A stretch of 64,000 nucleotides of DNA from Noviherbaspirillum sp. UKPF54 (lineage in GTDB: Bacteria; Pseudomonadota; Gammaproteobacteria; Burkholderiales; Burkholderiaceae_D): assembly GCF_007874125.1 (NCBI RefSeq), contig NZ_CP040128.1, forward strand, positions 3,596,001 to 3,660,000, in the 5' to 3' direction. Shown piece after piece: positions 3,128 through 63,350 of the stretch. Both the position numbers and the translations under genes were made by a program. The notes beneath the pieces were generated by a model. It ran no database searches, was not told where the DNA came from, and saw only the letters and a list, made by a program, of their open reading frames with translations. Every line of letters starts with the position of its first letter. Within the stretch, counting starts at the first letter, position 1.

Positions 3128-3630
3128 TTTGGGTCTCCTAGGGAAAAGGTAATAGCTATCGCCAACCAATCGCACCGAGCGGGCTGGACGCGGGGAGCAT
3201 GAGGCAATGTATATGCCAGATACCGGTGGTCGCGGCGGCGATGGGAGAGGACAAGCGCGGACAAGGCGGGACGAGCGAAACGTGGCGAAAGGCCGGGCCG
3301 GTGGAAGAGACTACAGAGAAGTGGAAAAAATTACAGCAATTACAACCGGGCAGACCCTGTCCATCCAGCACCGCTTGTAATGAAAATATTGTTGCCGGCG
3401 TAATGCGACGTGCAGACATTGCCAGCGCTGCAAAAAAAATGCCAAAGCAAAAGGAATTTGCTTTGGCAAATGCCCGTCGGGTCGCTCCGACAGGCGCCCA
3501 TGAAAGAGTGGCTACCTATCGCATCCATGCGAATTGCGTGCCACCTCGGGCGCCGGCTTGCGAAGGATGCGCCACGCAGCGACGCGTGCCCCTTTCGTTG
3601 CGCTGCCGCGCAAGCCCTGATGTCTAACGT
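3128..3630. other. Intergenic region between DUF4142 gene and spoVR
   Basis: About 500 bases without a convincing gene. The right half lies downstream of spoVR and holds a strong minus-strand terminator (3431-3467). The left half must hold the promoter of the DUF4142 gene, but no clear -35/-10 pair could be picked out. A plus-strand open frame here lacks a ribosome site and protein-like composition. Confidence 0.6.
3431..3467 (-). terminator. Rho-independent terminator after spoVR
   Basis: A perfect 11-bp stem (gccaaagcaaa with tttgctttggc, 3441-3451 and 3457-3467) with a 5-base loop. On the minus strand it is followed by eight Ts (As at 3432-3439 on the plus strand). It sits about 165 bases past the spoVR stop and closes the prkA-yeaH-spoVR operon. 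Confidence 0.85.
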
Positions 3631-6464: not shown

Positions 6465-6488
6465 AATGCCTCCTGAAACTTTTTGGTT

Positions 6489-6514
6489 CCCTTCTCCCGC
6501 GAGCGGGAGAAGGG
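6489..6514. other. Perfect intercistronic hairpin between prkA and yeaH
   Basis: An 11-bp perfect inverted repeat (6489-6499 with 6504-6514) around a 4-base loop lies in the 70-base gap between the prkA stop and the yeaH start. Neither strand has a T-run, so it is not a standard terminator. It could stabilise the upstream mRNA, adjust the PrkA:YeaH ratio, or be one copy of a dispersed short palindromic repeat. Confidence 0.7.
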
Positions 6515-6534
6515 CCACTACGTACGAGCCGCGA

Positions 6535-8457: not shown

Positions 8458-9010
8458 GGGCTTCCTTTGAGTTAGATCTACCGGTCATTTCGAGCGCCTA
8501 ACAAAATCCCGTTCGCCGCATGCACGTTCTGTTTTCTGTCTTGTTGTTGTGTCTCTTCTTGTTGTTGATCTTCTTGTTGTATGACTTGTGTGTCATGTCA
8601 GCGCGCTGTGCGATCGGCACTTTGTTAGGCGCTCTGGGGTGTCGGAATCAGTTACGAATTTCCACTCCGCAATTTAATAATACGCGCTCTTTTTTCTAGT
8701 CGGTAGGAAAATTTCGCTCTTTTTTTGCGCGCATAAATTATTGCGAAATACGCTTTTCACTTCGTATTTTCAAAGCGCTATTTATCGCGTCTTTATTTGT
8801 ATTTACAGCTCGATTGCGTAAAACTTTTTAGCGTAAAAGTTGTCGTGCAACGGGTTTTTCAGAGAGGAGAGTGTGCGGAAATGCGACAGACGATATCACC
8901 ACGCTATCACCGCGATGCCGCGCGCACGGCGTGGATCGCGCTCCGGCGATATCGTCATTAAAAACAGAGATTGATTAAATGGAAGTTGCGCCTATATTAA
9001 AAAGATAAGC
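8458..9010. other. AT-rich upstream region of the prkA operon
   Basis: About 550 bases without a protein gene, far more AT-rich than its surroundings between about 8640 and 9010, with runs of A and T and several short repeats (for example gcgtaaaa twice near 8815-8840). It must hold the prkA promoter on the minus strand. No sigma-54 consensus could be found. A small RNA cannot be excluded. Confidence 0.6.
8492..8634 (-). promoter_or_regulatory. Leader of prkA with a long-range 14-bp inverted repeat
   Basis: The sequence gagcgcctaacaaa (8492-8505) and its exact complement tttgttaggcgctc (8621-8634) enclose 115 bases. In the minus-strand transcript these form a 14-bp stem around a region rich in CAA/AAG triplets that looks unstructured. 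The 3' arm lies 34 bases before the prkA ATG. The start of transcription is not known, so it is an inference that the whole structure is in the mRNA. Confidence 0.5.
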
Positions 9011-9172
9011 TAGTGTCCTGAGTTAGAAGTTCGTTGAAAAATAAAACTGATGCAATGAGCGTCAGACGAGGCACAAACCGGAGCAAGGCCCGGGTGCCTT
9101 GCGAGGATTTGTAACGAAGGATGACGTTTATTTCATCGGTTTTATTCGACGGACTTCCAACTCAGGACACTA
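9011..9172. mobile_element. MITE-like 162-bp inverted-repeat element
   Basis: Ends tagtgtcctgagtt...aactcaggacacta are inverted repeats, 25 of 28 positions matching, and weaker complementarity continues inwards to a central stem gcaaggc/gccttgc, so the whole element can fold into one long hairpin. Each end is bordered by TA, as expected for TA target duplication of IS630/Tc1-mariner-type elements. There is no room for a transposase. The right end lies inside the 3' terminus of the AsmA-family gene. Confidence 0.7.
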
Positions 9173-11560
9173 TCTACCGAACAAGCCCTTCAGCTGGTCC
9201 TTGAGCTGATCCTGCACTTTTGCTTTTTCTTCTTCCAGCGCTTTTTGCGCTTTCGATTTCACTTCTTCCTTTTTCTCGTCGATGCGCTGCTTGGCCAGTT
9301 CGCTCGCCATGCCCGCGAAATCGATGCGCCAGCCGAGCGCCGCGAACGGCCCGCTCAGCCGCACCGGCACCGTCACGCCTCGCAACGCCTGCAGTTCCGG
9401 CCCGCCCTGCCCTTGCAGACTTTGCACCACCGTCGCGCGCACCAGATAGTCGAGCCGTTCCGCGCCAAGGTCGATATCGCCGGCGCCGCCGATGCGCATC
9501 AGGGGCGACTTGATGCTGAGGTCGTCGTTGTGCGCCACGCCGTTGGCGATGCGGAAGCTGCCGGACAGTTCGCTGAAGTCGGTCTTCTCGGCGGCCGAAC
9601 CCTGCCCGCTCTGCGCCGATGGTTGGCCGCTCCCCGTGTCGCCGCGGATTTCCCCGATCTTCGCCTTCGCGCTGCGCACCGCCTGCGCGATATTCACGCC
9701 GCGCACCGCGCCGTCGCGCAGTTCCATCCGCGCGGTCCCGTTCAATCCTTTCATCATTTGCGAGAAGGTGCCGCCGGCCGTCGTGACGTCGAGCTGCACA
9801 TTGCCCTTGCCCTCCAGCGTGTCCTTGTTGATCGCGTCCTTCAGCAGCGGGCCGACGTTGACGCCGGTAAGGCTTTGCCGCACCGCAAAACGCGCGGGCG
9901 TGCTCGCCGTGGCCGACAATGCGCCGGCCACGCTGCCTCCATAGAGGTTGGCGGCGAGCGGGCTGATGTCGAGCTTGCCGCCGGCGGCGTGCAGATCGAA
10001 GCGCACGTTCGAAGTCCGGATGTTTTTGACTTTCAAGGCGCCGACCCGCACGCTGCCGTCGGCGCGCAAGTCGCGCAGCGCGGTCAAGTCGATCGGCTTT
10101 TCCGGTGCATTCGGCTTGGGCGCGGCCGCAGCGGTTGCGGCCGGCTTGGCCTGGTAGCGGTCAAGATCGATGCGGTCGACGCCGATATCGAAGGTATAGG
10201 CGGCCGGGGAGAATTTCGTCAGGCCGAGTTTCGCATCGAATGCGCTTTCGTCGAGATGGCCCTTCAGTGCCGCCGACACCGTCTCCTTGCCGAGATTGAC
10301 GTGCGCGCTGCCGCCGGCTTTCAGCTTGAACGTGCCGCCGCCCGGGTTGGGCAAGGTGAAATCGGCAAGCAGGCTGGACAGATCGATCATGCCGGCGCCG
10401 AGATTGGCGGACAGCGGCGTGGTGAGCGTGCCGTCGATGGCGCTTCCTTCCTGCCTGCCCGACAGCGCGAGCGCCAGTTGCGGCGAGGTGAACAGCAGCT
10501 TGTCGATGTCGCCGGCAATGGCGCCGCTGATCTTCGCCTTCACGTCGCGCCTGGCGTCCTTCAAGGCGGCGTCCACCGTCAGCGCGGGCAGCTTGAATGC
10601 CTGCGGCGAGCCCTCGAACGACGGCGCGCCGAAACTGGCGCTGATGGCGCTGCCGGCCTGCGTGAGGCTGGCCGTGCCGCTAAGTTTGCCGCCGGACACC
10701 CGGGTGTCGGTGATCGCCAGCTGCGGCAGATCGAGCTTCACTTCCAGCGGCTCGCCGGCGCGCTTGCCGGCTGCGCTGAACTTGATGTCGTCCAGCGCGA
10801 AGCGCTTGCCGGTCGGCTTCAGGTCGGCGTTGCCGGCCAGCGTAAGCACGAGATCGCGGAAGTCGAGCACCGCGCCGGTCAGCTTGCCGTCCAGGCCCTT
10901 GAATACGTAGCGTCCCTGTTCCAGGTCCATGGTGAAGCCGGTGTCGAGCGCCAGCCTGGCATCGAGCGCCGGCTTGCCGCTTTTGATGCTGCTGGTCAAT
11001 TTCAGCTTGCTTGGCACGCCGCTGGCGATCTTGCCGGTTTCCAGGTTCAGGTCCGACAGCTCCAGCGTGCGTCCCTCCTTCTGGTCGTCATACAGAAGGT
11101 GCGCATGGCGGATGTCGACGCCGTCGATGTCGAACGCGACCTGCTGGCCGGATTCCTCGTTCTTCGACAGCAGGTCGTCGTAGTTGGCGCTGCCGTCCTC
11201 GCGCCGACGGATCTGCGCGCGCAAGCCGTCGATCTTCACCCGGTCGACCACCAGTTGCTTGCGCAACAGAGGAACCAGCGCGAGCGAGACCTTGGCGCTA
11301 TCCACCGACGCGAACTCGTCCCGGCTGTTGTGCTCGGAGATGCTGAGCTTGCCGAGATCGGCGCCCAGCCTGGGAAAGAAACTGAGCTTGATCTCGCCGG
11401 GGATGGACAGGGTGCGCTGCTTCTTTTCCTGCACCAGCCGGATAAGCAGCGGCTTGTAGTCGTTCGGGTCGAAGGTGGCGGCGATGAAGCCGGCAGCGGC
11501 CAGCAGCAGGCCGATCAGGGCAGCCAACGCGATGAGCAGATATTTGACGAGCTTGGGCAT
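9170..11560 (-). CDS. AsmA family protein
   Basis: A 796-residue AsmA-like protein. It has one N-terminal membrane anchor (residues about 5-28, LLIALAALIGLLLAAAGFIAA), then the conserved FDPNDYKPLL start of the AsmA domain, long beta-rich repeats, and an AsmA C-terminal domain around 560-740. A charged coiled segment rich in Lys, Glu and Gln follows. The family is periplasmic, inner-membrane anchored, and implicated in outer-membrane lipid homeostasis. The stop codon TAG is formed by the TA target plus the first G of the 9011-9172 element, so the native C-terminus may have been altered by a few residues. The ribosome site is weak. Confidence 0.92.
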   Translation of the reverse strand: MPKLVKYLLIALAALIGLLLAAAGFIAATFDPNDYKPLLIRLVQEKKQRTLSIPGEIKLSFFPRLGADLGKLSISEHNSRDEFASVDSAKVSLALVPLLRKQLVVDRVKIDGLRAQIRRREDGSANYDDLLSKNEESGQQVAFDIDGVDIRHAHLLYDDQKEGRTLELSDLNLETGKIASGVPSKLKLTSSIKSGKPALDARLALDTGFTMDLEQGRYVFKGLDGKLTGAVLDFRDLVLTLAGNADLKPTGKRFALDDIKFSAAGKRAGEPLEVKLDLPQLAITDTRVSGGKLSGTASLTQAGSAISASFGAPSFEGSPQAFKLPALTVDAALKDARRDVKAKISGAIAGDIDKLLFTSPQLALALSGRQEGSAIDGTLTTPLSANLGAGMIDLSSLLADFTLPNPGGGTFKLKAGGSAHVNLGKETVSAALKGHLDESAFDAKLGLTKFSPAAYTFDIGVDRIDLDRYQAKPAATAAAAPKPNAPEKPIDLTALRDLRADGSVRVGALKVKNIRTSNVRFDLHAAGGKLDISPLAANLYGGSVAGALSATASTPARFAVRQSLTGVNVGPLLKDAINKDTLEGKGNVQLDVTTAGGTFSQMMKGLNGTARMELRDGAVRGVNIAQAVRSAKAKIGEIRGDTGSGQPSAQSGQGSAAEKTDFSELSGSFRIANGVAHNDDLSIKSPLMRIGGAGDIDLGAERLDYLVRATVVQSLQGQGGPELQALRGVTVPVRLSGPFAALGWRIDFAGMASELAKQRIDEKKEEVKSKAQKALEEEKAKVQDQLKDQLKGLFGR

Positions 11561-12259: not shown

Positions 12260-13045
12260 TTACGGCGCGACCTCGTAGCGGTCGCGTCCGGCGTGCTTGG
12301 CCGCGTATAGCGCCGCGTCGGCGCGGTTGATGGTTTCGGAAATGCTTTCGCCCTGCCGGCGCTCGGCGATGCCGAAGCTGGCCGTCACGCAGATCTGCGC
12401 CTGGCCGGCGCGCACGCGCAAGGCGCCGACGGCGGCATGGACGCGCTCGATCATGTTCACCGCCTCGTCCGCGCCGATTTCCGGCATGATGATCAGGAAC
12501 TCCTCGCCGCCCCAGCGGCCGCAGGAGTCATATTCGCGCACGCTGGATTCGATCACGCGCGCCAGCTCGACCAGCGCCTTGTCGCCCGCCTCGTGGCCGT
12601 GCTCGTCGTTGATCGACTTGAAGTGGTCGACGTCCAGGATCGCCAGCACGAGCGGGCGGCCCAGGCGTTCGGCGCGCGCCGTTTCCGCCTTCAGGCGCTC
12701 CATCAGCATGCGCCGGTTGCCGATTCCGGTCAGCGCATCCTTGGTCGAGGCCTCTTTCAGGGCCTCATTGAGGTCGCGCATCATCAATTGGTAACGGTCT
12801 GAAATCCGGGCCAGCCGCTCCAGCTGGCGCAACTGCTTGCTGTAGCGCTCCGACAGCGACAGCTGATTTTCCCGGCTGGCGGTCTGAAAGCGGTCCGAGA
12901 TGCGGGTGATGCGCTCCATCTGGTACACCGCGTCGCGAAATTCCACATACAGGCGCGACAGTGCCTGCCGCAGCGGATGATCGGCATACAGCGGGTCTTC
13001 CAGCAGGCTCTCGACGGTTCTCTCCAGCTGGCGGTCGTCGCGCAT
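12260..13045 (-). CDS. siaD: SiaD-like diguanylate cyclase
   Basis: About 261 residues. The helical N-terminus (1-100) contains two repeats of an RITRISDRFQ / RLARISDRYQ motif, then a GGDEF domain begins at KDALTGIGNRR. The active site is GGEEF (RWGGEEFLII), and REYD five residues before it fits an RxxD inhibitory site, so it should make c-di-GMP and be product-inhibited. No membrane segment is seen. The ATG at 13045 has GGAGTGA upstream and lies two bases past the siaC stop. Gene order and the helical repeats identify it as SiaD; in Pseudomonas SiaD is activated by unphosphorylated SiaC. Confidence 0.93.
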   Translation of the reverse strand: MRDDRQLERTVESLLEDPLYADHPLRQALSRLYVEFRDAVYQMERITRISDRFQTASRENQLSLSERYSKQLRQLERLARISDRYQLMMRDLNEALKEASTKDALTGIGNRRMLMERLKAETARAERLGRPLVLAILDVDHFKSINDEHGHEAGDKALVELARVIESSVREYDSCGRWGGEEFLIIMPEIGADEAVNMIERVHAAVGALRVRAGQAQICVTASFGIAERRQGESISETINRADAALYAAKHAGRDRYEVAP

Positions 13046-13047
13046 CT

Positions 13048-13428
13048 TCACTCCACCCGGCAGGAAATCGAGAACGGAAACGTGCAATCCTCCTTGAACT
13101 CCTCAGCCAGCTCGGCCACCCGCTCGTTCTGTTCATCGTAGAACCAGTTGACCGCGACCTGGCGCCCCTTGCCGTGCGCTTCCTCCAGCATGTCGAAGAT
13201 GTCCATCATCGCCTTCACGCTGCTGGTGTTCAGGTACAGCAGGTACAGGTTGAGCGTCAGCGGCCGATCGCCGGCGCCGAGATAGCGTTCGATCCAGTCC
13301 AGCACCGGAGAGAACAGCTCGAAAGAATTTTCCGGGTAGGAGTCGCCGCGCATTTCCAGCGTTCCGGCCGCATGGCTGGTACAGATGGCGGGCGTCGATT
13401 GCGTGCTTTCGATTTTCAAGTCGTTCAT
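13048..13428 (-). CDS. siaC: SiaC-like DUF1987 regulator
   Basis: A 126-residue DUF1987 protein. The conserved YLNTSSVKAMMDIF block contains the Thr/Ser pair that in the Pseudomonas system includes the residue phosphorylated by SiaB and dephosphorylated by SiaA. The fold is STAS-like. Known function from that system: unphosphorylated SiaC binds and activates SiaD. The ATG is preceded by AGAAGGAAA; an ATG two codons upstream is out of frame. It lies between siaB and siaD with tight spacing, consistent with a four-gene operon. Confidence 0.9.
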   Translation of the reverse strand: MNDLKIESTQSTPAICTSHAAGTLEMRGDSYPENSFELFSPVLDWIERYLGAGDRPLTLNLYLLYLNTSSVKAMMDIFDMLEEAHGKGRQVAVNWFYDEQNERVAELAEEFKEDCTFPFSISCRVE

Positions 13429-13454
13429 TGCATTTCCTTCTATTGCGTATCCGC

Positions 13455-13997
13455 TTACATCACCACGCGCATGCTGAAAAACGCGCGCTCGTCGCCGACT
13501 GCCTGGACCGAGCAGACCAGCGGCTCGGCCGCCTTGCGCGCCATGTCGATCAGGCCAAGGCCGGCGCCGGTGACGGCGCCGTCGTCGCGCGGCTTGCGCA
13601 GCTGCTCCTTGTATTCCGCCTTCAGCCGCGCCTTGTCCATGGCGGCCAGCGCGGCGACGCGCGCGGCGAGCGCCTGCCCGTCGGCCGCATCGACGATGTT
13701 GCCGGCCGAGACCACGTAGCGCCCGAGCGCGTCGCGCGAAATCACCACCGTGGCCGACACTTCGGCATCGTTCCAGCCCTTGGCCGCCGCATAGTGGCGG
13801 ATATTCTGCGTCAGCTCGATATACGCGCCGAACACGTCCATCGCGGACGACGGCGTCGCGTTTTCGCGCTGCATGTAGTTGCGCAGCGCGTTGCCGATCT
13901 CCTCGATCAGGCTCTTGGTCAGCGGACCGTTAAAGCACAGCATGATGCGCTGCTGGTCATAGGTCTGCTGCAGTGAAAACAGGTCGATCAAGCCCAT
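13455..13997 (-). CDS. siaB: SiaB-like protein kinase
   Basis: A 180-residue SiaB family kinase with a GHKL/HATPase-like fold. An N-box-like segment is seen at IELTQNIRHYA, and a glycine-rich GAVTGAGLGLIDMARKA motif lies near the C-terminus. Known role from the Pseudomonas system: it phosphorylates SiaC and so turns SiaD off. The ATG lies 18 bases downstream of the siaA stop with a GGGAG site (ctccc on the plus strand). No membrane segment or signal peptide is seen. Confidence 0.9.
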   Translation of the reverse strand: MGLIDLFSLQQTYDQQRIMLCFNGPLTKSLIEEIGNALRNYMQRENATPSSAMDVFGAYIELTQNIRHYAAAKGWNDAEVSATVVISRDALGRYVVSAGNIVDAADGQALAARVAALAAMDKARLKAEYKEQLRKPRDDGAVTGAGLGLIDMARKAAEPLVCSVQAVGDERAFFSMRVVM

Positions 13998-14015
13998 GAA
14001 GTCTCCCGGAGCGAG

Positions 14016-16007
14016 TTATGCAAAGCGAAAGCACACTATCGTAATGTCGTCGCGCTGCGGATGGCTGCCCTGGTAGGCCGCCAAGGTGGAAGCAAACGCG
14101 CCGCTCTGTTCGGCCAGCGGCCGGTTGGCATGCCGCTGCAGCATTTCCACGAAACGCGCATTGCCGAAACCGAAGCCTTTTTCGCCGCCGGCCTGGTCGA
14201 GGAAGCCGTCGGTGGTCAGGTAAAAAGTGCGGGACGGCAGCAGCGCGACGCGCTCGTTATGATACCGGCCGGGCTGGCGCTCGCCCAGCGAGCGGCGCGC
14301 GCCCTTGACGGCGTCGACTTCCATGCCGTCGCACCAGTAGAGCGCGATCCGGGCGCCGGCGAAGGTCACCTGGCGCGACGCCAGATCGACGTAGGCCAGG
14401 CCCGCATCCATCATGGTCGCGACGTGGCGCGCCTCGCCGTCGGCCTGCAGCATGGCGCGCACCGCCTGGTCCGTGCGCGCCAGTATGCCCGCCGGATCGG
14501 CCGCGCCGGCTTCGTCGATTGCCTGGTCGAGCGCCGCGCGTGCCAGCATCGTCATGAATGCGCCGGGAACGCCGTGCCCGGCGCAATCGACCACGCCCAA
14601 GAGGCAGCCGCCCTCGACTTCCCTGTATACATAGAAGTCGCCGCCGACCACGTCGCGCGGGCGCCACAGCACGAAATGATTGTCGCCCAGCGCGCTGACG
14701 AGCTGACGGTCCGGCAAGATCGCGCGCTGGATCAGGCTGGCGTACGAGATCGAATCGCTGATCTTCTTGTGCGCGGCGGCCATTTCCTTGTTCGCCGCCA
14801 GCAGCTCGCCGGTGCGCTCGCGCACCTTGTCTTCCAGTTCCTCGGTATGGCTGCGCACCTTGTGCGCCATGGCGCCGAAGGCAGCCGTCAGCTCGCCGAT
14901 TTCGTCGTTGCGCGGCGCCGGCAGCGCCACCGAGTAATTGCCGGCGGCCATCTGCTGCGCCGACTGCTTGAGCCGCAGCAGCGGCCGCAGCACTAGCCGG
15001 TCGACCGCGAACGAAAAGCCGACTACCACCACCGCGAGCAGCGCCATGGCCGCCAGCGCGATCCATCTGAGCACGCCGGTATCGATCACGTTGGCCACGT
15101 CGAGGTCGACCGCGGTCAGCACATGCCATTTCAGCTCGGGAATGTAGGACACGGCGAACACCTGGTTCTTGCCATCGAGGCGGGCCGAAAACATTTCGGC
15201 GCTGCCGGGGGTACGCATGGCAGCGTTCAGCGCCGCCTGCGCCGCGGCGACGTCGGCGGGGCGCTGCAGCAAACCGAACAGCGACTTGTCGCTGGCGGCC
15301 GCGCCGGTGCCGGAATTGAACGCGATGTGCCGGTGGTCCGGATGTGCCTGAATCGCACCGGTGGCATCGACGATCATGGGCGTCACGCCCGGCTCGCTGG
15401 TGCCGATGAAGTCGCGCAGGAAGGCCGACAAGTCCAGCCCGGAACCGGCCAGGCCGATGTTGCGCTCGCCATCCCGGATCATCATGTTGAACCAGACCTT
15501 GGTCACGCCCAGCTTGACGTCCGGATCGACATTGATGTTGAACGGACGGTCGCTCTTGATGGTGTTGAAAAACCATGCGTCGTGGCTATCGTCCGGCTTC
15601 AAGCGGTAGCGCGGCTCGATGCTGAATGCCGACCGGGCATCGTTGAAGTAATAATTGTTCGACAGCGCGGAAACCAAAAAATAGGAGTGGTCCTGGAAGT
15701 CGCGGCGAAAGCTTTCCGCTTCCTCGAAGGCGCGCGCCTTCTTAGTGGCGTCGGTGTCGTCCTGCATCCATTGCCGGATCGCCTGCGACGCGGCCAGGCG
15801 CGATGACAATGCCAGCTCGCGCGTGACCGGCGCCAGGATACGCTCACGCTTGAGCAGAGTGAAGTTGCGGGTGTAGGCGGTGCCGAGATGGGAGCGGATC
15901 GAATTGACGGCTTGCCATCCGATCAGCGCCGCCAGCAGCAGCACCAGGATGCAGGTGATCAGCAGCGCAAGAACCGATTTCCCGCGTAGTCCCAGTGCCG
16001 CCCGCAT
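14016..16007 (-). CDS. siaA: SiaA-like membrane PP2C/SpoIIE phosphatase
   Basis: About 663 residues. Transmembrane segment 1 is at about 10-32, then a large periplasmic sensor of the Cache type (about 35-290), transmembrane segment 2 at about 315-335, a HAMP linker (LRLKQSAQQMAAGNYSV), a coiled coil, and a C-terminal SpoIIE/PPM phosphatase domain. The phosphatase has the metal-ligand motifs GGDFYVY and GVVDCAGHGVPGAFM. It should dephosphorylate SiaC in response to an external signal. The ATG at 16007 has GGAG seven bases upstream; eleven more in-frame codons upstream lack a ribosome site. It is the first gene of siaABCD. Confidence 0.93.
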   Translation of the reverse strand: MRAALGLRGKSVLALLITCILVLLLAALIGWQAVNSIRSHLGTAYTRNFTLLKRERILAPVTRELALSSRLAASQAIRQWMQDDTDATKKARAFEEAESFRRDFQDHSYFLVSALSNNYYFNDARSAFSIEPRYRLKPDDSHDAWFFNTIKSDRPFNINVDPDVKLGVTKVWFNMMIRDGERNIGLAGSGLDLSAFLRDFIGTSEPGVTPMIVDATGAIQAHPDHRHIAFNSGTGAAASDKSLFGLLQRPADVAAAQAALNAAMRTPGSAEMFSARLDGKNQVFAVSYIPELKWHVLTAVDLDVANVIDTGVLRWIALAAMALLAVVVVGFSFAVDRLVLRPLLRLKQSAQQMAAGNYSVALPAPRNDEIGELTAAFGAMAHKVRSHTEELEDKVRERTGELLAANKEMAAAHKKISDSISYASLIQRAILPDRQLVSALGDNHFVLWRPRDVVGGDFYVYREVEGGCLLGVVDCAGHGVPGAFMTMLARAALDQAIDEAGAADPAGILARTDQAVRAMLQADGEARHVATMMDAGLAYVDLASRQVTFAGARIALYWCDGMEVDAVKGARRSLGERQPGRYHNERVALLPSRTFYLTTDGFLDQAGGEKGFGFGNARFVEMLQRHANRPLAEQSGAFASTLAAYQGSHPQRDDITIVCFRFA

Positions 16008-16162
16008 TTTTTCTCCGCATGATTGTGGACGGAATGCCAAGCGCCCTGGCCGTCCTCCGGTCTAGTCGAACTGGGCGCGAATTCCCGCCCTCGCATCGCC
16101 AAGCCGGCAAATCGGCTTGATTTCCGGAAATTCTGCCAGTCATTGCGGCAACGCGCAAATAC

Positions 16163-55556: not shown

Positions 55557-58157
55557 CTAGGCCGCCAACAGGCCGTCGATTTCGGCGCTGGGCAGCGGCA
55601 CGCTGCACAGGAAACCCTGCAGCTGGTCGCAATTGAGCAGCTTCAGCAGTTTTTCCTGTTCCCTGTCGTCGACACCCTCGGCGATCACTTGCAGCTGCAG
55701 CGAATGCGCCAGCGAAATGACGGAGCTGACGATGGCCAGTCCGGACGCGCTTTGATTCATGCCGAGCACGAAGGAGCGGTCGATCTTGAGCAAGTCGATC
55801 GGCAGCCGGGTCAGGTAGCTGAGCGAGGAGTAGCCGGTACCGAAGTCGTCCATCGCGATCTTCATCCCCATTTCCTTGGCCGCCTGCAGCTTGGGGATGT
55901 TTTGGTCGATATCCTCCATCATGATGCTTTCCGTGATTTCCAGGTCGAGGACATGAGCGCCGTCCGGGATCTTGTCGCGGATGCGCTGGAGCGCGTTGAC
56001 GAAGTTGCGGTGCCTCAACTGGATCACCGACACATTGATCGCGATCGGCGGCGGCTTCAGCCCCATCCCGGCCCAGCGCAGGTAGTCGGAAACCGCCTTT
56101 TCCATGATCCACTGCCCGACCTGCAGGATCATGCCGGTTTCCTCCAGGATCGGGATGAACGCCGTCGGCAGCACCAGTCCCGACTCCGGTTCGTTCCAGC
56201 GCAAGAGCGACTCCAGGCCCACGATCCTGCCCGTGGCGGTATGGATCTTGGGCTGGTAGTACAGCGTGAATTCCTCGCGTTCCAGCGCGCGGTACAGGCG
56301 GTTCTCCAGGGTCAGCCGCCGGGCCACGCTGGCGTTCATCTCGGGCCGGTAGAACAGGTAAGCCTCGTCGCTGCGCTTGGCCTTCCTGAGCGCGACTTCG
56401 GCGTTCTTGTAGAGAAGGTCGCGCTCGGCGCCGTCGCCGGGGAACATCGCAATGCCGGCCTTGACCGAGACATACAGTTCGTTGTCGCCGATCTGGAAGG
56501 CGCTGTCGAAGCATTCGTGCACCAGCTTTTCCAGCAGGTGGGCGGCATCGGCCGCGCCGACATTGGCCAGCAGCAACGCGAAGCGGTCGCCGCCGATATG
56601 CGCCAGCGTATCGTGCGCCGAGACCTGGTGCTTCAGGCGCGACGCCGCTTCCCGCAGCACCGCGTCGCCGACATGACGCCCGTAGCTGTCGTTGATGTTG
56701 GAAAAGCGCTCGCAATCGAGGACGATGACCGCCATGCGCTGCTGTTCGCGACGCGCCGATTCGACATGCAGCTGCAAGCGGTCGAAAAACAATGCGCGGT
56801 TGGGAAGATCGGTCAGCGAGTCGTAATACGCGAGGTAGTTGCTGCGCTCTTCCTTGGCCAGGTGATCGAGCGCATACGAAATGTCTTCCGCCATTTCGTA
56901 CAGCAGCTTCATTTCGTCACGATCGAAGAAGTGGGCTTCGGCGGCGTAGATGGACAACACGCCGGCCGTCTTGTCCAGCGCCGACAGCGGGAACACCACC
57001 AGCGAGCGGTAGCCGCGCCGCAGGTGCTCCTCCTTGCGCGCGATGCGCCGGTCGGAGGCGATGTCGTTGCAGACGATCGCCTTGCCGCCCTTGAGCGCGC
57101 GCTCCAGCAGCGCCGGCTCCTCGATCATGCCGGCGCTGTTCCTGCCGCCGTCCCCGGCCGTCGTCACGTTCAGCTGGCCGGCCGCCCCCAGCCCGATCCA
57201 GGCCATGTTGAACTTGCCGTATTCGACCAGGATGCGGCACACCTCGCGCACCAGCGCGCCACGCTCGCCGATGCGCACGATGGCGGCATTGATGGCGCTC
57301 ATGATTTCGCGGATGCGGGTCAGGCGGGCGATTTTCCTTTCCTGGTTCTTGCGCTCGGTGATCACCTCGGTGAAGATGATGATGCCGCCGATTTCCTGTC
57401 GCTCGTCATACCAGGGATGGGCTTCCCAGCGCACGTAGTCGACCGTGCCGTCGGCACGCACGAACATGTCGTCTTCGCTCTTTTCGGTGGCTCCCGCCAG
57501 GCAGCGCCGGTAGACGTCGCGCCAGCGCTGCGGCGTTTCGGGGAACACGTCGTAATGGGACAAGCCGATCAGGTCGCGCTCTTCCAGCCGGTAGTCGGTC
57601 AGCCAGCGCGGACTGTACAGCACGTAGCACAATCCCTTGTCGAGCATCGCGACGGCAGCCGGATTGTGCTTGATGAAAAGGCGCATGCGTTCCTCGCTGC
57701 GCCGCAACGCCTCGCTTTTCTGTCCCAGCGCGGTATTGAGCGTGCGCAGCTGCGCGATGGTTTCCGCATAGCCGCGGTACATCATGTCGAAGGGCGCCAG
57801 CACCTGGCCGAAGAACTCGGCCCCCTTGGCGATGACGACGGCTGCTTCCTTGCCGGGCTGCGGCCGTATCTCGATGTCGGCGGCCAGCATGGCCGACTGG
57901 TGGATCTCGCTCAGGTCCAGGATGCTCAACTGCTCGGCCGCACCGCGTCGCCCCAGGTCATAGGCATGCAGCAGCGCGTCTTCGTCGGGCAAGCCCCTCA
58001 GGTAGTCGAGCAGCGCCACACGGTAGGCCTGACGAAAGCCGCCCTGCCCGACCGGCATTTCCGCTTCCTTGTGCACGAACCTGAGCGTCCGGGGCTCGGC
58101 TGGTTCGCGCGGCGTCAGCCTTCCACGCTGGCCGGCATCATTTCGCCGCTTGTCCAT
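55557..58157 (-). CDS. RsbU_N-PAS-GAF-GGDEF-EAL protein (stressosome output)
   Basis: 866 residues. N-terminal RsbU_N domain (about 41-130: FRQAYRVALLDYLRG...EFFGQVLAPFDMMYRGY), then PAS (about 155-270), GAF (about 285-430), a GGDEF-like domain (about 445-600) and an EAL domain (about 615-855). The GGDEF motif is degenerate (IGGDRF) with no RxxD site; the EAL domain keeps ESLLRW, DDFGTGYSS, LKIDRSFV and EGV, so phosphodiesterase activity is likely. RsbU_N is the docking site for RsbT. It overlaps the phosphatase gene by 43 bases. A second ATG at 58058, with AAGGA upstream, is a plausible start. Confidence 0.92.
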   Translation of the reverse strand: MDKRRNDAGQRGRLTPREPAEPRTLRFVHKEAEMPVGQGGFRQAYRVALLDYLRGLPDEDALLHAYDLGRRGAAEQLSILDLSEIHQSAMLAADIEIRPQPGKEAAVVIAKGAEFFGQVLAPFDMMYRGYAETIAQLRTLNTALGQKSEALRRSEERMRLFIKHNPAAVAMLDKGLCYVLYSPRWLTDYRLEERDLIGLSHYDVFPETPQRWRDVYRRCLAGATEKSEDDMFVRADGTVDYVRWEAHPWYDERQEIGGIIIFTEVITERKNQERKIARLTRIREIMSAINAAIVRIGERGALVREVCRILVEYGKFNMAWIGLGAAGQLNVTTAGDGGRNSAGMIEEPALLERALKGGKAIVCNDIASDRRIARKEEHLRRGYRSLVVFPLSALDKTAGVLSIYAAEAHFFDRDEMKLLYEMAEDISYALDHLAKEERSNYLAYYDSLTDLPNRALFFDRLQLHVESARREQQRMAVIVLDCERFSNINDSYGRHVGDAVLREAASRLKHQVSAHDTLAHIGGDRFALLLANVGAADAAHLLEKLVHECFDSAFQIGDNELYVSVKAGIAMFPGDGAERDLLYKNAEVALRKAKRSDEAYLFYRPEMNASVARRLTLENRLYRALEREEFTLYYQPKIHTATGRIVGLESLLRWNEPESGLVLPTAFIPILEETGMILQVGQWIMEKAVSDYLRWAGMGLKPPPIAINVSVIQLRHRNFVNALQRIRDKIPDGAHVLDLEITESIMMEDIDQNIPKLQAAKEMGMKIAMDDFGTGYSSLSYLTRLPIDLLKIDRSFVLGMNQSASGLAIVSSVISLAHSLQLQVIAEGVDDREQEKLLKLLNCDQLQGFLCSVPLPSAEIDGLLAA

Positions 58158-58741
58158 CGCCCCCCCAGCAGCAACGCATCATCCGTGCTTCTGTTGTGTT
58201 CCATAAAAATTCGATGCACCAACTCATGTGGATGTTCCGTAAATCGGATGTCGCGTATGAACGCGCTGTATATGCCATCCGTGGCAAAAAAAAGCAGGTC
58301 GCCGCAATGCAATGGCAGGGTGGTCGGCAACAGGTTCGGCAGCCGGTCGCCGACGATGCCACCGCGCAACAACAAGCTGGAGCGCCTGCCGGAGGCGGAT
58401 AGCAGCATGCCTTCGACATTGCCAATGCCCAGCCAGGTCATGCTATTGGTTGCCGCATGGCATGATGCAATGCTCATGACCGCGCCACGCATACGCCTTA
58501 ACGCGTGATGACAACGCTGCGCCAGGGCCGTCACCGGCTCGCCCGCATGCGCCGCCAGCACGGCAGTCGCGGTGCGGGCGGCAACAGCGGCCTCGGCACC
58601 ATGGCCGAGGCCATCCACCACGGCAATGAGCACGCCGTCAGGAAACGGCGCCACCAGGAATTGGTCGCCTGATTCGGATTGTCCCGGCATCGGGCGCGTG
58701 ACGACCCAGTAGTCGAGCAACGGCGTGGAGCCGGATGTCAT
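58115..58741 (-). CDS. SpoIIE/PP2C-like phosphatase (RsbX-like)
   Basis: 208 residues, a stand-alone PPM/SpoIIE phosphatase. Metal-binding motifs GVLIAVVDGLGHGAEAAVAA and LLFFATDGIYSAFI are present. In stressosome operons RsbX is the phosphatase that resets RsbR and RsbS, and this gene occupies its place after rsbT. It shares no sensory domain. The stop of the upstream ATPase gene and its start are back to back, suggesting coupling. Confidence 0.88.
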   Translation of the reverse strand: MTSGSTPLLDYWVVTRPMPGQSESGDQFLVAPFPDGVLIAVVDGLGHGAEAAVAARTATAVLAAHAGEPVTALAQRCHHALRRMRGAVMSIASCHAATNSMTWLGIGNVEGMLLSASGRRSSLLLRGGIVGDRLPNLLPTTLPLHCGDLLFFATDGIYSAFIRDIRFTEHPHELVHRIFMEHNRSTDDALLLGGRWTSGEMMPASVEG

Positions 58742-59155
58742 CTATCGTTCCCATTTCTTCATGGTGATGGTGGTTCCCTTTCCGACTTCCGATTCGATTT
58801 CGAATTCATCCATGAGCCGCTTGGCGCCGGGCAAACCGATGCCAAGGCCGCGCGACGTGGTATAGCCGTCCTGCATCGCCAGCGACAGGTCGGCGATGCC
58901 GGGGCCGCCATCCTCAGCGATCACCAGCAGTCCGCGCCGGTTTCCCTTCTGGATAAGGCGTAATTCCATCCAGCCATCCTTGGCATACAGCACGGTGTTG
59001 CGGGCGATTTCGGAAATCGCAGTGGCGATAATGGTCAGTTCGCTGGTCGAAAAACGCAGCGACGACGCCAGTTCCTTGCCGTGCTGCCGTGCCTTGAGCA
59101 CGTCCACGTCGGAACTAAGCGGCATGGCGGCTTCATGGCTGGTGGCCGGCATCAT
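58742..59155 (-). CDS. rsbT: RsbT-like serine kinase (GHKL ATPase)
   Basis: About 137 residues, HATPase of the RsbT/RsbW type. N-box TAISEIARNTVLYA, G1 box DGGPGIADLS, G2 box TTSRGLGIGLPGAKRLMDEF. RsbT phosphorylates RsbS and RsbR, leaves the stressosome, and binds the RsbU_N domain of the downstream enzyme. The ATG has AGAGAGA upstream; it overlaps the rsbS stop region. A second ATG one codon later is equally possible. Confidence 0.93.
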   Translation of the reverse strand: MMPATSHEAAMPLSSDVDVLKARQHGKELASSLRFSTSELTIIATAISEIARNTVLYAKDGWMELRLIQKGNRRGLLVIAEDGGPGIADLSLAMQDGYTTSRGLGIGLPGAKRLMDEFEIESEVGKGTTITMKKWER

Positions 59156-59513
59156 TCTCTCTTGCTCCACGCGATCGCAGGATCGCCAAGCCATCCTCCA
59201 GATCCAACGCGATAATCGCATGGTCCAGCGTCAAGCCAAGCTGCACCATCGATATCGCCACTTCCGGCTGAATTCCGGCAATCACCGTTTGCGCGCCGAG
59301 CAGCCGGGTCATCTGCGCGATGCTGCGCAGGGTGCGTGCGGCAAACGAATCCATAAGATCCAGCACCGTCACGTCGATCACCACGCCGCGCGACCGGTGC
59401 TGCCGTACCTGCGCCACCAGCTGATCGCGCAGCGTCAGCAGTTCGGCGTCGCTTAACTCGCCCTGGATGGATGCGATCAGACAATGCTCCTGTTTCAAGA
59501 TGGGAACGAGCAT
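59133..59513 (-). CDS. rsbS: RsbS-like STAS-domain protein
   Basis: 126 residues, a single STAS domain. The kinase-target Ser is S56 in VLDLMDSFAARTL, aligned with Ser59 of Bacillus RsbS (VDSF). The GIQPEVAISMVQLGL segment is also RsbS-like. It forms the stressosome core with RsbR. The ATG beginning MLVPILKQEH has a purine-rich GAGGAAAGC site; twelve further codons overlap rsbR and are unlikely. Confidence 0.94.
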   Translation of the reverse strand: MLVPILKQEHCLIASIQGELSDAELLTLRDQLVAQVRQHRSRGVVIDVTVLDLMDSFAARTLRSIAQMTRLLGAQTVIAGIQPEVAISMVQLGLTLDHAIIALDLEDGLAILRSRGARENDAGHQP

Positions 59514-59520
59514 GCTTTCC

Positions 59521-60495
59521 TCACCCGCCCTGTTCGTCCGCCTGATCATCCTTGTCGATTCTGACCATGCGGTAGCCGCTCAGCTGCTCGGCGCGTTCTA
59601 TCCCGCTCTGCATGTCGCCAACAGTCTCGACGCGCCCGAGGTCGGCGCCGATGGCCACCATGGTCAGGGCGATTTCCGGCGACACGCCTGAAACGATCGC
59701 CTTGGCGCCCATCAGGCGCGCCGCCTCCACCGTTTGCACCAGGTGGCTGGCTACGCGCGAATCGACATAGGGCACGCCGGTGATATCCACCAGCACGTAC
59801 TTGGCGCGGTTGTCGCGTATGGCGCGCAGCAATTGTTCGGTGAGCTGGCTGGCGCGGTAGGAATCGATCAGGCCGACGATCGGCAGGAGCAGAATGCCCG
59901 GCCGAAACGGCAGCACCGGCGTCGACAATTCGCGGATCGCTTCCTGCTGGTCGCCGATGGTGCGCTCGCGCGAACTGACATAGGTATCGATCGCCAACCC
60001 CATGTCGAAAAAGGTCAGCTTCGTGAGGGACAGGAAGATGTCGAGCGCCCGCCCCGGATCATGCTTGTACGCATCGAATACCCGCCCGGCCACCGCACGC
60101 AGATAAAAGTTGTACATCGCCAGATAGGACTTGATCGGCAAGGAAATGCGCTCGTGCGCGGCGCCGATCTTCAGGCGGTTCTCGACATACTCGGAGTCGT
60201 AGTTCCCTTTCGTCAGGCGCAGGAAGTATCTCTTTTGCGCATTCTTCACGCGTTCCAGCAATTGCGGATCGCTAAAGAACGAACGGGTTTCATCGAAGGA
60301 CATCAGGTGCTTGTAAAAGTCCTCGATCACCACGTCGGCATACTGCATCGCCAGTTCGTTGATGCTGGTCAGTCGCGTCTCGTCGGTTTCGTCAAACTGC
60401 AGAAACTGCTTGCGGCGACGAATCTCCTGCTCGTCGATTTCATATCCTTGCAGCAAGGAGGCGCGATCCTTGCGTGGGTGAGCTTTTACATCCAT
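59521..60495 (-). CDS. rsbR: Globin-coupled RsbR-like stressosome sensor
   Basis: 324 residues. The N-terminal globin-coupled sensor domain (about 20-180) has its proximal His at H114 in RLKIGAAHERISLPIKSYL, typical of heme-binding globin sensors. The C-terminal STAS domain (about 195-310) keeps the RsbR phosphosites: S246 (VDSRVA, Thr171 in Bacillus) and T278 (EIALTMV, Thr205). It should sense a gas or redox signal through heme in the stressosome. GGAG is 8-9 bases before the ATG at 60495. It is the first gene of the operon. Confidence 0.95.
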   Translation of the reverse strand: MDVKAHPRKDRASLLQGYEIDEQEIRRRKQFLQFDETDETRLTSINELAMQYADVVIEDFYKHLMSFDETRSFFSDPQLLERVKNAQKRYFLRLTKGNYDSEYVENRLKIGAAHERISLPIKSYLAMYNFYLRAVAGRVFDAYKHDPGRALDIFLSLTKLTFFDMGLAIDTYVSSRERTIGDQQEAIRELSTPVLPFRPGILLLPIVGLIDSYRASQLTEQLLRAIRDNRAKYVLVDITGVPYVDSRVASHLVQTVEAARLMGAKAIVSGVSPEIALTMVAIGADLGRVETVGDMQSGIERAEQLSGYRMVRIDKDDQADEQGG

Positions 60496-60801: not shown

Positions 60802-61452
60802 TCAGTCCGCGTCGACGACCAGACCGGTGCGCACCGCGAAGCGGATCAGCCCAGCCATGTCGTGAATGCCCAGGCGCTCCATGAGCTGCGCGCGGTGCGT
60901 CTCGACCGTCTTCGGGCTGAGATCGAGCTGGCGTGCGATCTGCTTGGTACTGGCGCCATCGGCGATCAGGACCAGGATCTCGCGCTGGCGCGGCGTGAGC
61001 ATGTCCGGCGACGGATTGCCGCTGCCAGTGCGCTGCATGTAGGCCTCGACGATCTGCTTGGAGATCGGCGGCGACAGATAGATTTCGCCGCGCATCACCG
61101 TTTCCAGCGCCAGCGGAAGTTCTCCGGTGGCCGCGTCCTTGAGCAGGTAGCCGGAGGCACCGGCGCGCAGCGCCTGCATCACATGCTCCTCGCTGGAGAA
61201 CATGGACAGGATGGCGACATGCACCGCGGGAAAATCGGCCTTGATGCGGGCGGTCGCCTCCAGCCCGCCCATGCCTTTCATGCCGATATCCATCAGCACG
61301 ATATCGGGGACGAGCTGCGCGACGATGTCGAGCGCCTGTGCGCCGGAGCCGGCCTCGCACACCGATTCGACTTGCGGCACCCGCTCGAGCAGGCCACGGA
61401 TGCCGGCGCGCACCAGCGTATGGTCGTCGACCAGTAGGACGCGCAATGCCAT
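60802..61452 (-). CDS. LuxR/NarL family response regulator
   Basis: 216 residues. Receiver domain with phospho-acceptor D55 (IVLMDIGMKG) and conserved K near KDAATG, then a NarL-type HTH (LTPRQREILVLIADGASTKQIARQLDLSPKTVETHRAQLMERLG). It should be activated by the kinase encoded just upstream. The ATG has AAGGAGA seven bases before it. There is a gap of about 300 bases between it and the stressosome operon. Confidence 0.95.
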   Translation of the reverse strand: MALRVLLVDDHTLVRAGIRGLLERVPQVESVCEAGSGAQALDIVAQLVPDIVLMDIGMKGMGGLEATARIKADFPAVHVAILSMFSSEEHVMQALRAGASGYLLKDAATGELPLALETVMRGEIYLSPPISKQIVEAYMQRTGSGNPSPDMLTPRQREILVLIADGASTKQIARQLDLSPKTVETHRAQLMERLGIHDMAGLIRFAVRTGLVVDAD

Positions 61453-61493: not shown

Positions 61494-63350
61494 TCAGTCG
61501 TCCTTGTTGTCGGCGGCAAGCGGGATCTCGGCCCACACCATCGTGCCCTTCCCGGGCTCGGAGCGCACGTCGAAACGCCCGCCCAGGAGCGTGACGCGCT
61601 CCTCCATGCCGGACAATCCCATGCACTCGCCACGATCCTGCAACGGCTTGCCGGCAGCCGCGTCGAAGCCGCGCCCGTCGTCGCGCACCTTGACCTGCAG
61701 CGCGCCGCGGTAAGCATCCAGCTTGACCGAGACGTGGCGCGCCTCGGCATGGCGCACGACATTGGTCAGCGCTTCCTGGATCACGCGGAAAATCGCAGTT
61801 TCCAAGCCTGGCGCCAGCCGCGGCAAAGTATCCGCATGGAAATAAGCTTCGAAGCCCGCTTCGCGCGCCTGCTGGTCCAGGTGCCAGCGCACCGCGGCGA
61901 CCAGCCCGAGGTCGTCGAGTTGCGGCGGCCGCAGCCCGAGAAACAGCCCCTTCACGCGCGCCAGCGTGTCGTCGCACATGGCCACGCTGTGCCGAATCGG
62001 CGCGCGGCATGCCTGCGCAGCGCAGTGATCCAGGGACTCCAGCTTGAGCTTGACCGCGGTCAGCGCCTGGCCGATTTCGTCGTGCAGCTCGCGCGCGATG
62101 TGGCGCCGCTCATTTTCCTGCACATCGAGCATGCGCTCGGACAGGCGGTGCAGGCGGCTGTTGGCTTCCTTCAGGCGCGCCAGCGTGAGGTTGCGCTCGC
62201 CGAGGTCGGCATACAGACGCAGCGTGCCGCGGCCGCCATCCTTGCCGCCCTGGTAGGGCGCCGACCACAAGGCCACTTCGACCGCGCTTCCATCCTTGCG
62301 CCGCCGCGTCAGCTCCACGCCGTTGCGTCGCGCGCCGCGCACCTCCTCCGCCAGCATTTGCCGGAACGCCGGTATTTCCTGCTGCGGCGTGATGGGCAGC
62401 TCGCGCCCGAGCACCTCGTCGCGGCGCCAGCCGAACAGGCGCTCCGCAGCCTGGTTCCACAGCATCACCCGGCCTGCGCTGTCGAGCAAGATGATGGCCA
62501 GCGGCGACACGTCGACCAGCATTTGCAACTCGTCCCTGGCGCGCAGCAGTTCCGACTCCAGCGCGCGCCGCTCGGTGATGTCGCGCACCACCTTGCCGTA
62601 GCCGCGCAGGCGCCCAGACTCGTCGCGCAGCGCCGTGATCGACGACATGGCGAGGAACGGCGAGCCGTCGCGCCGTACCAGCCAGCCCTCCACTTCCAGG
62701 CTGCCGTCGCGTTCGGCGGCGGCGAACAGCTGCTGCGGCACCCGCATTTCCTGGTCCTCGGGCCGGAAGAATCCCGCACATGCGCGGCCGATCGCCTGCG
62801 CCGCCGTATAGCCGGTCATGCGTTCGGCGCCTTCGTTCCAGCTCGTGATGCGCCCGTCGGTGTCGAGAGTGACGATGGCGTACTCCTTCACGCTGTGCAC
62901 CAGCAGGCGGAAGCGCTCTTCGGCGTCGAGCAGGGCCGCGCGCTGCTCGGTGAGATCGATGCTGCAGCCGACATAGCCGGTGAACGCGCCGCCCTCGCCG
63001 TAGCAGGGCGCCGAGCGCGACTGGATCCAGCGGTAGACGCCATCGGCGCGCCGCAGGCGGTAGGACAGCGTCACTTGCTGACGCAGCCGGACCGACTCCA
63101 TGAATACGGCGATGCAGCCGCGCAGGTCATCCGGATGGACGCTTTCCTGCCATCCGTCGCCCAGTTCCTGCTCCAGGCTGCGGCCGGTGAACTGGAGCCA
63201 GGATGGGCTCACGTAGGTGCATTGCGCGTCGCCGTCGCACATCCATGTCATCGCCGGATTGAAGTGTGCCAGCAGATGCAGGCGCGCGAGGTCATCGTCA
63301 TGGCGCCCGGCGCTGGCGAAATCATCGTTATCGGCGGTCCGGCTTGGCAT
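61494..63350 (-). CDS. Multi-PAS sensor histidine kinase (HisKA_3)
   Basis: 618 residues, no membrane segment. Three PAS domains occupy about 20-385 (first with NPAMTWMCDGD, second EEYAIVTLDTDGRITSWNEGAERM, third SPLAIILLDSAGRVMLWNQAAERLFG), then a HisKA_3 dimerisation domain (RRHIARELHDEIGQALTAVKLKLES, phospho-His) and HATPase with QEALTNVVRHA and DDGRGFD. It pairs with the NarL-type regulator 41 bases downstream. It probably senses a cytosolic ligand or redox state. Confidence 0.95.
   Translation of the reverse strand: MPSRTADNDDFASAGRHDDDLARLHLLAHFNPAMTWMCDGDAQCTYVSPSWLQFTGRSLEQELGDGWQESVHPDDLRGCIAVFMESVRLRQQVTLSYRLRRADGVYRWIQSRSAPCYGEGGAFTGYVGCSIDLTEQRAALLDAEERFRLLVHSVKEYAIVTLDTDGRITSWNEGAERMTGYTAAQAIGRACAGFFRPEDQEMRVPQQLFAAAERDGSLEVEGWLVRRDGSPFLAMSSITALRDESGRLRGYGKVVRDITERRALESELLRARDELQMLVDVSPLAIILLDSAGRVMLWNQAAERLFGWRRDEVLGRELPITPQQEIPAFRQMLAEEVRGARRNGVELTRRRKDGSAVEVALWSAPYQGGKDGGRGTLRLYADLGERNLTLARLKEANSRLHRLSERMLDVQENERRHIARELHDEIGQALTAVKLKLESLDHCAAQACRAPIRHSVAMCDDTLARVKGLFLGLRPPQLDDLGLVAAVRWHLDQQAREAGFEAYFHADTLPRLAPGLETAIFRVIQEALTNVVRHAEARHVSVKLDAYRGALQVKVRDDGRGFDAAAGKPLQDRGECMGLSGMEERVTLLGGRFDVRSEPGKGTMVWAEIPLAADNKDD

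Follow-up and report, generated by a model that had tools for sequence, protein, structure and literature searches.

Toward the end of a 64-kb stretch of the genome of Noviherbaspirillum sp. UKPF54, a bacterium of soil type (contig NZ_CP040128.1, positions 3,596,001 to 3,660,000; we call this whole stretch the window), five genes on the minus strand are packed into an operon that starts with the components of a stressosome, RsbR, RsbS, RsbT, and RsbX, and ends with an enzyme that appears to destroy cyclic di-GMP (c-di-GMP). A sequence-only reading of the window had described one tight operon for RsbR, RsbS, RsbT, an RsbX-like phosphatase, and an RsbU_N-PAS-GAF-GGDEF-EAL protein, and both the coordinates and the Pfam matches agree with that description. 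The features are these:

59521..60495, minus strand: rsbR, protoglobin-STAS sensor/scaffold (324 amino acids, ATG at 60495)
59133..59513, minus strand: rsbS, single STAS domain (126 amino acids)
58742..59155, minus strand: rsbT, switch kinase, GHKL ATPase (137 amino acids)
58115..58741, minus strand: rsbX, PP2C/SpoIIE-type feedback phosphatase (208 amino acids)
55557..58157, minus strand: output gene, predicted RsbU_N-PAS-GAF-GGDEF(degenerate)-EAL phosphodiesterase (866 amino acids)
57678..58049, minus strand: RsbU_N domain and connecting helix, output protein residues ~37-160 (from Pfam, an AlphaFold2 model, and a profile compared with the PDB)
55599..56303, minus strand: EAL domain with a complete catalytic set (from Pfam, the family alignment, and an alignment with 4rnh)

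There is little room between these genes: rsbS and rsbT overlap by 23 bases, rsbX starts without a gap after rsbT, and rsbX overlaps the output gene by 43 bases in five of six loci, including the window, and by 76 in the sixth (L002). Pfam finds Protoglobin (expectation value, E, of 1e-37) and STAS (5.5e-16) in RsbR, STAS (1.2e-14) in RsbS, HATPase_c_2 (5.7e-9) in RsbT, SpoIIE (5.7e-12) in RsbX, and EAL (3e-67), GGDEF (1e-37), GAF_2 (4e-16), and PAS_4 (2e-11) in the output protein. What one expects of an RsbRST(X) module is present: genes for a sensor-STAS protein, a single-STAS protein, and a GHKL kinase lie side by side, and RsbX is a single-domain PP2C. Whether the gene order is conserved, a question raised with the original description, has a simple answer in the six loci examined (the window, L001, L002, L089, L090, and L091), all of which keep R-S-T-X-phosphodiesterase. 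All five genes are under purifying selection when the window is compared with L001, the N. autotrophicum locus, with a ratio of nonsynonymous to synonymous substitution (dN/dS) of at most 0.24 for each whole gene. Directly upstream of rsbR, in the window and in L001, minus-strand genes encode a NarL-type regulator (60802-61452) and a HisKA_3 kinase with three PAS domains (61494-63350).

The output enzyme and its ancestry

With the RsbU_N region as query, protein searches found 5 proteins at E<=0.001 and 29 at E<=0.01, and the 27 that have an EAL domain form the family alignment used here. Its named members come from Noviherbaspirillum, plus one from Herbaspirillum sp. HC18; the counterpart in N. 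autotrophicum TSA66 is 90% identical to the window protein. Throughout the family, the catalytic and metal residues of the EAL domain (E649, N708, E740, E743, D770, D771, K791, E827, and Q847) are invariant, as is the DDFGTGYSS loop. The fourth-position catalytic Glu of GGDEF is kept in none of the 27 (it is Val in 20, Arg in 4, and Leu in 3), and the position of the inhibitory-site Arg is Ser in every one. Asp481, Asn489, and Asp498 of the degenerate domain are kept in all 27, and therefore, binding of GTP would be possible. The roles given here to individual EAL and GGDEF residues are those that we take them to have. The EAL motif itself reads ESL in 20 of the 27 members, the window protein among them, and has A in 3 and C in 4 at the middle position. 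In the PDB, the output protein is most similar to 4rnh (“Motility regulator,” E 3.5e-102), and the best NCBIfam match of its C-terminal half is DibA (E 7.5e-120; 401 bits, which is below the 980-bit cut-off). By its residues, the protein is a dedicated c-di-GMP phosphodiesterase that has lost the cyclase motif, and the earlier assignment of a phosphodiesterase-type enzyme at the end of the operon holds.

Did the stressosome cause this loss, or did it find the enzyme already in this state? Among the nearest GGDEF-EAL proteins without a detected RsbU_N domain, the fourth-position Glu is lost in 25 of 26 with the EAL residues intact, and only L020_1 keeps GGDEF. Absence of RsbU_N from these 26 rows means that all of them were among 188 frames scanned with a profile, in which matches at E<=10 were confined to the six family loci and L110 (a more distant locus discussed below); the similarity of the 26 to the window protein begins at residue 135 or later, and some of the frames are cut at an end, L020_1 and L022 most of all. 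We had considered GGDEF degeneration as a mark of capture by the stressosome and rejected it, since 25 of the 26 relatives without a detected RsbU_N had also lost the Glu. For the same reason, we argue that this loss predates the RsbU_N fusion. The stressosome seems to have taken over a phosphodiesterase from a lineage in which the cyclase was already dead.

The predicted docking domain and the sensor

The N terminus of the output protein is where the stressosome would make contact, and its match to the Pfam RsbU_N family (PF08673; residues 44-124) lies close to the family cut-off of 25.5 bits, at 21.0 bits for the window protein by itself and 25.6 bits in the genome search. In the family, 22 of the 27 members match RsbU_N at E<=0.01. 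A mixed profile of ten RsbU_N regions (one is that of the window, two are from its close relatives, and the other seven come from operons where the neighbors are RsbT-like or further stressosome-like) gave only four significant matches in the PDB, all of them B. subtilis RsbU sequences (2j6z, 2j70, 2j6y, and 1w53; E 5e-12 to 2e-10), with the next-best match at E 0.61; part of this signal stems from the clearer members of the profile. In the AlphaFold2 model of the region, which reaches a predicted local distance difference test (pLDDT) score of at least 90 in 111 of 160 residues, helices at 38-53, 59-74, and 79-97 are followed by one continuous helix at 103-159, which points toward the PAS domain and extends to residue 164 in the full-length model. 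That larger model has a mean pLDDT of 72.9 and a predicted template modeling score of 0.36, and we have used only its continuous helix at 103-164. Foldseek returned no significant match for the RsbU_N model, and VIA-align placed a KaiA structure 1st and RsbU 25th, within the noise of helical bundles, so we take the fold comparison as compatible with RsbU_N and nothing more. Because of the 22 Pfam matches, the profile that leads to B. subtilis RsbU, and the helical model, we take the domain to be a genuine RsbU_N relative on sequence grounds, and the fusion of RsbU_N to a c-di-GMP enzyme that was first proposed from the letters alone stands.

How RsbU receives RsbT has recently been described in B. 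subtilis: Glu24, Tyr28, Ile74, and Ile78 are implicated in RsbT binding, Arg91 of the linker is predicted to pair with Asp92 of RsbT (a charge swap abolishes stimulation), Gln94 packs unfavorably in the coiled coil of the linker, the N-terminal domain serves for dimerization, and RsbT activates RsbU by stiffening the linker (eLife 2025, PMC12143880). In our family, Glu59, which aligns with Glu24, is Glu in 27 of 27 members. In the mixed-profile alignment, Arg138, which aligns with Arg91, is Arg in 26 of 27, and Asn141, which aligns with Gln94, is invariant; this mapping of the linker was done by hand and hinges on a four-residue alignment gap. Leu137, Leu144, and Leu151 of the helix are invariant at heptad spacing. 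Between the window and L001, dN/dS is 0.049/0.305 for RsbU_N and 0.013/0.441 (~0.03) for the linker, and residues 1-40 are looser (~0.5). What weighs against contact of the B. subtilis kind is that Tyr28, Ile74, and Ile78 are not kept, their counterparts being Leu63, Gly117, and Ala121.

At the other end of the pathway is RsbR, which is not of the Bacillus type. Its closest PDB match is 7o0i_B (E 4e-50), which we take to be the RsbR of the Vibrio vulnificus stressosome; when the two chains are aligned, Tyr61 of our RsbR is paired with a Tyr and His114 with a His. Both residues are identical in the six loci aligned, and all six RsbR proteins, therefore, have the proximal His and distal Tyr of a protoglobin. 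The Pfam match and these residues predict that the sensor is a heme-type protoglobin, which the sequence-only reading overlooked, and for this reason, the input is probably oxygen. In Vibrio brasiliensis, deoxy Fe(II) RsbR raises the kinase activity of RsbT, which is basal with Fe(II)-O2 (PMC4976288), and because of this precedent, low oxygen would be the likeliest activating signal here. A search of the genome found one protoglobin. As an observation apart, RsbR residue 86 (window ~60240-60238) is Ala, and it is Ser in the 7o0i chain and in L090. The second distal Ser of V. brasiliensis probably aligns with Ala86, which possibly is a distal-pocket position where the oxygen affinity of the globin might be altered.

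Between these two ends lies the switch. The STAS domains of both RsbR and RsbS have a Ser that could be phosphorylated: RsbR Ser212 and Ser246 align with threonines of Listeria RsbR that we take to be phosphorylation sites, and RsbS Ser56 lies in a DSFAART motif at what is presumably the position of the B. subtilis RsbS phosphorylation site, Ser59; all three serines are identical in the six loci. Across the same loci, the N-box, the D.GPGI box, and the MQDGYTTS..GLGIGLPG..RLMDEF block of RsbT are identical or nearly so. The PDB matches of RsbX are 3zt9 (E 2e-16) and the RsbX structure 3w40 (E 2e-12).

A proposed path from oxygen to c-di-GMP

If this is a stressosome, where does its signal go? 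In Bacillus, it would go to SigB by way of the phosphatase RsbU and the anti-sigma kinase RsbW, and neither turned up in our searches of the genome. HATPase_c_2 has 27 matches in the whole genome (E<=0.001); the frame of RsbT is short (162 amino acids) and the rest are at least 366 amino acids long, so that no RsbW-sized kinase was found; the single RsbU_N match of the genome is in the EAL output protein, and hence, no RsbU phosphatase was found. Six STAS matches comprise RsbR, RsbS, two long frames (606 and 504 amino acids), and two short proteins, one of which is beside a CheY-like gene and the other in an Mla-like cluster (neighbors judged by eye). The sequence-only reading had stated that no anti-sigma or sigma gene is nearby: for anti-sigma kinases of the RsbW type, this can now be extended to the whole genome, and the part of the claim that concerns sigma factors stays where it was, because genes for them were not searched for.

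We think it probable, although far from certain, that the locus encodes an RsbRSTX stressosome in which a heme globin senses oxygen, and that this stressosome is coupled not to a SigB cascade but to a phosphodiesterase dedicated to c-di-GMP. The path that was proposed at the outset, from the stressosome to RsbT to RsbU_N to c-di-GMP hydrolysis, is in our opinion the best reading. At low oxygen, the globin of RsbR would be unliganded, and RsbT would phosphorylate RsbR and RsbS and leave the RsbR/RsbS shell. Free RsbT would then bind the output protein at its RsbU_N dimer and at the helix next to it, which it would stiffen as on B. subtilis RsbU, and this would change, and most likely raise, hydrolysis by the EAL domain so that c-di-GMP would fall. 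RsbX would strip the phosphates and reset the shell. If true, the RsbT signal goes to an enzyme that destroys c-di-GMP and not to a switch for stress genes as in Bacillus.

Four other accounts deserve a hearing, and the likeliest of them accepts every contact that we propose and reverses the sign. RsbT might bind RsbU_N and inhibit the phosphodiesterase (or its release might relieve an inhibition), in which case stress would raise c-di-GMP. The sign of the RsbT effect is not readable from sequence, and the RsbT homologue of Moorella reportedly inhibits its RsbU_N-linked cyclase, a finding said to be that of Quin in 2012. Control of that cyclase by RsbT is noted in the B. subtilis work (PMC12143880), but the same work has RsbT activating RsbU through a stiffened linker, and the invariant polar Asn141 in our linker agrees with a coiled coil that does not form unaided. 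We regard inhibition as unlikely, without thinking it far-fetched. Alternatively, RsbU_N might be a dimerization module only, with no RsbT contact, and ligands of PAS and GAF might set the activity; the RsbU N-terminal domain is indeed a dimerization domain (PMC12143880), and the equivalents of Tyr28, Ile74, and Ile78 are not kept. Yet the genome has a single RsbU_N match and a single short kinase of the RsbT/RsbW type, both of them in this operon, and the two are paired in six of six loci, which makes this account very improbable to us.

Two accounts remain. One has the stressosome act through the neighboring pair of a PAS histidine kinase and a NarL-type regulator, as proposed for Vibrio, with the phosphodiesterase only cotranscribed; in its favor are the place of the pair directly upstream of rsbR in the window and the closest relative, L001, and the fact that in other genomes of the class (L095, L096, and L099), RsbU_N is part of a kinase, and a related regulator comes next. 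However, the pair was not found in the ~4 to 7 kb upstream of rsbR in four of the six loci (L002, L089, L090, and L091), the phosphodiesterase is present in all six, and Pfam detects no RsbU_N in the window kinase, and we judge the idea improbable. In the other, the output protein would be a sensor of c-di-GMP or GTP or a scaffold (a “trigger” enzyme) for which hydrolysis is not what matters. The ESL spelling in 20 of 27 members, the window included, could be read this way, and so could Asp481, Asn489, and Asp498, with which the GGDEF domain may still bind GTP; nine catalytic and metal residues and a DDFGTGYSS loop that never vary are not what one would expect of such a protein, and we hold a trigger role to be improbable too.

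Returning to activation by RsbT, we can imagine a bolder form of it, to which we commit ourselves only tentatively. An oxygen-sensing stressosome would drive the destruction of c-di-GMP without transcription, RsbT would zip up the RsbU_N linker, and Asn141 would be a polar “gate” like Gln94 of RsbU. Phosphatases, histidine kinases, cyclases, and phosphodiesterases alike would have received the docking module as outputs, with RsbT as a general plug-in activator, and the cyclase-dead lineage would have been captured by the stressosome, possibly more than once in the Burkholderiales. If the proposed steps hold, one gas signal, one kinase, and one hydrolase would make a system compact enough to be rebuilt in vitro, and the rebuilt system would test whether the RsbT-linker mechanism known from RsbU extends to a c-di-GMP hydrolase.

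Distribution, precedents, and neighboring systems

Within the genus of the window, 5 of 15 genomes (G000-G014) carry the output protein. In 7 others, the RsbT-like proteins are all more distant (best E 1e-32 to 1e-36), and in the last 3, none was found at E<=1e-12. One of the seven, L092, has an RsbRD_N-STAS, RsbS, and RsbT stressosome at 4261-10320, and downstream of its RsbT are two ATPase fusions, one to SpoIIE and one to a histidine kinase, and a hybrid kinase; L101 is similar by BLAST only. In a draw of 369 genomes of the class, 8 pass the Pfam RsbU_N cut-off, and the seven matches besides the window are RsbU_N-histidine kinases (six assigned by Pfam and L094 by eye from its sequence). 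Five of these kinases adjoin RsbR-, RsbS-, RsbT-, and RsbX-like genes. The kinase of L096, where the contig is short, has an RsbT-like gene beside it, and that of L098 adjoins an RsbX-like fragment only. In L093, L094, and L097, the stressosome operons have two adjacent RsbT-like genes together with the RsbU_N-histidine kinase.

In 399 genomes of the order, three pass the cut-off: the window, one kinase (L111), and L110. The last of these, from another Burkholderiales family, has, at 3224-7613, a globin RsbR-S-T-X set followed by a 713-residue RsbU_N-PAS-GGDEF-EAL protein in which Pfam detects no GAF. Its GGDEF motif is GSDEF, its first metal Asp is also changed, and its EAL residues are intact. 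In a tree of 37 rows, which was built from the relatives nearest to the window and has L110 on a long branch, the GGDEF-EAL part of L110 falls outside the window family and 24 rows without RsbU_N, with the fork drawn open; an approximately unbiased test did not reject a single origin of the two fusions (p 0.124). L110 is possibly an independent second capture in the Burkholderiales.

None of this is without precedent. The stressosome of Moorella thermoacetica, said to have been described by Quin in 2012, reportedly consists of MtR-MtS-MtT-MtX-MtG, and its sensor is a non-heme globin-like domain. As here, the stressosome kinase of Moorella governs a c-di-GMP enzyme that starts with the RsbU N-terminal domain; its RsbT controls a cyclase built as RsbU N-terminal domain-GAF-GGDEF (PMC12143880; PMC4976288 also reports the control by RsbT, without naming the domain). 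The difference is in the output, a GGDEF cyclase there and an EAL phosphodiesterase with the cyclase motif lost here. Heinz et al. (2022, PMC9237108) have catalogued globin RSTX modules with eleven output types, and the modules share with ours the RSTX order, the globin RsbR, and an RsbX beside RsbT. According to their text, some alpha-, beta-, and gammaproteobacterial outputs carry RsbU_N, Vibrio, Chromobacterium, and Herbaspirillum are c-di-GMP output types, and EAL and GGDEF appear in the domain legend of their Fig. 3. Because one relative of our output protein is from Herbaspirillum sp. HC18, the catalogued Herbaspirillum type may be the same RsbU_N-PAS-GAF-GGDEF-EAL chain.

The two Vibrio systems share the heme-globin RsbR, RsbS, and RsbT, with an oxygen-dependent RsbT kinase in V. 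brasiliensis (PMC4976288) and the RSTX order in V. vulnificus (PMC9237108). Unlike here, the downstream protein of V. vulnificus had no detected RsbU_N, and an interaction between RsbT and VvD1 could not be shown (PMC9237108). For that species, a downstream module that degrades c-di-GMP has been hypothesized (PMC10014275). In a literature search covering few subscription papers, a link from a stressosome to hydrolysis appeared only as this hypothesis, and no experimental link to a phosphodiesterase turned up. With Bacillus subtilis RsbRSTU-VW-SigB, our operon has in common the R-S-T core, the RsbX reset, and RsbU_N as the docking domain for RsbT; it differs in that no RsbU phosphatase or RsbW-sized kinase was found and that RsbX directly follows RsbT. 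DibA-type GGDEF-EAL phosphodiesterases resemble the output protein in its C-terminal half; the N-terminal RsbU_N and the stressosome operon set it apart from them. The arrangement is, in short, a well-formed member of a kind already catalogued, and its novelty is modest because the Heinz catalogue, the Moorella cyclase, and the Vibrio hypothesis all came earlier. What we would add is residue-level evidence that points to a phosphodiesterase-only output, a probable ancestry for the enzyme, and a specific prediction for the linker.

In the 330 bases before rsbR, aligned in six loci, clear likeness (by eye) was seen only between the window and L001, and neither the FNR-type TTGAY-N4-RTCAA pattern nor the TGGCAC/GGCA-TGC pattern matched in any of the six. 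A promoter scan found 0 sites (1.7 in shuffles) and 3 terminator-like sites (4.0 in shuffles). A shared promoter motif was considered and, with these results, rejected.

At 12260-16040 of the window, also on the minus strand, lies a second operon, which encodes dCache-HAMP-SpoIIE, DUF6272, SiaC, and GGDEF proteins and resembles what we take to be siaABCD. The 64 kb thus hold two partner-switching systems, and their last enzymes are opposed: a probable synthase of c-di-GMP in this operon and a predicted hydrolase in the other. As a conserved neighbor of the stressosome, the siaABCD-like operon was rejected: SiaC was not found in two of five genomes (G014 and G004), is ~0.5 Mb from the stressosome in G006, and is on another contig in G001. 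The 4.7-Mb genome G000 has 60 EAL-domain matches (E<=1e-10), a very large c-di-GMP network, and among these 60, the stressosome operon would single out one with a predictable input.

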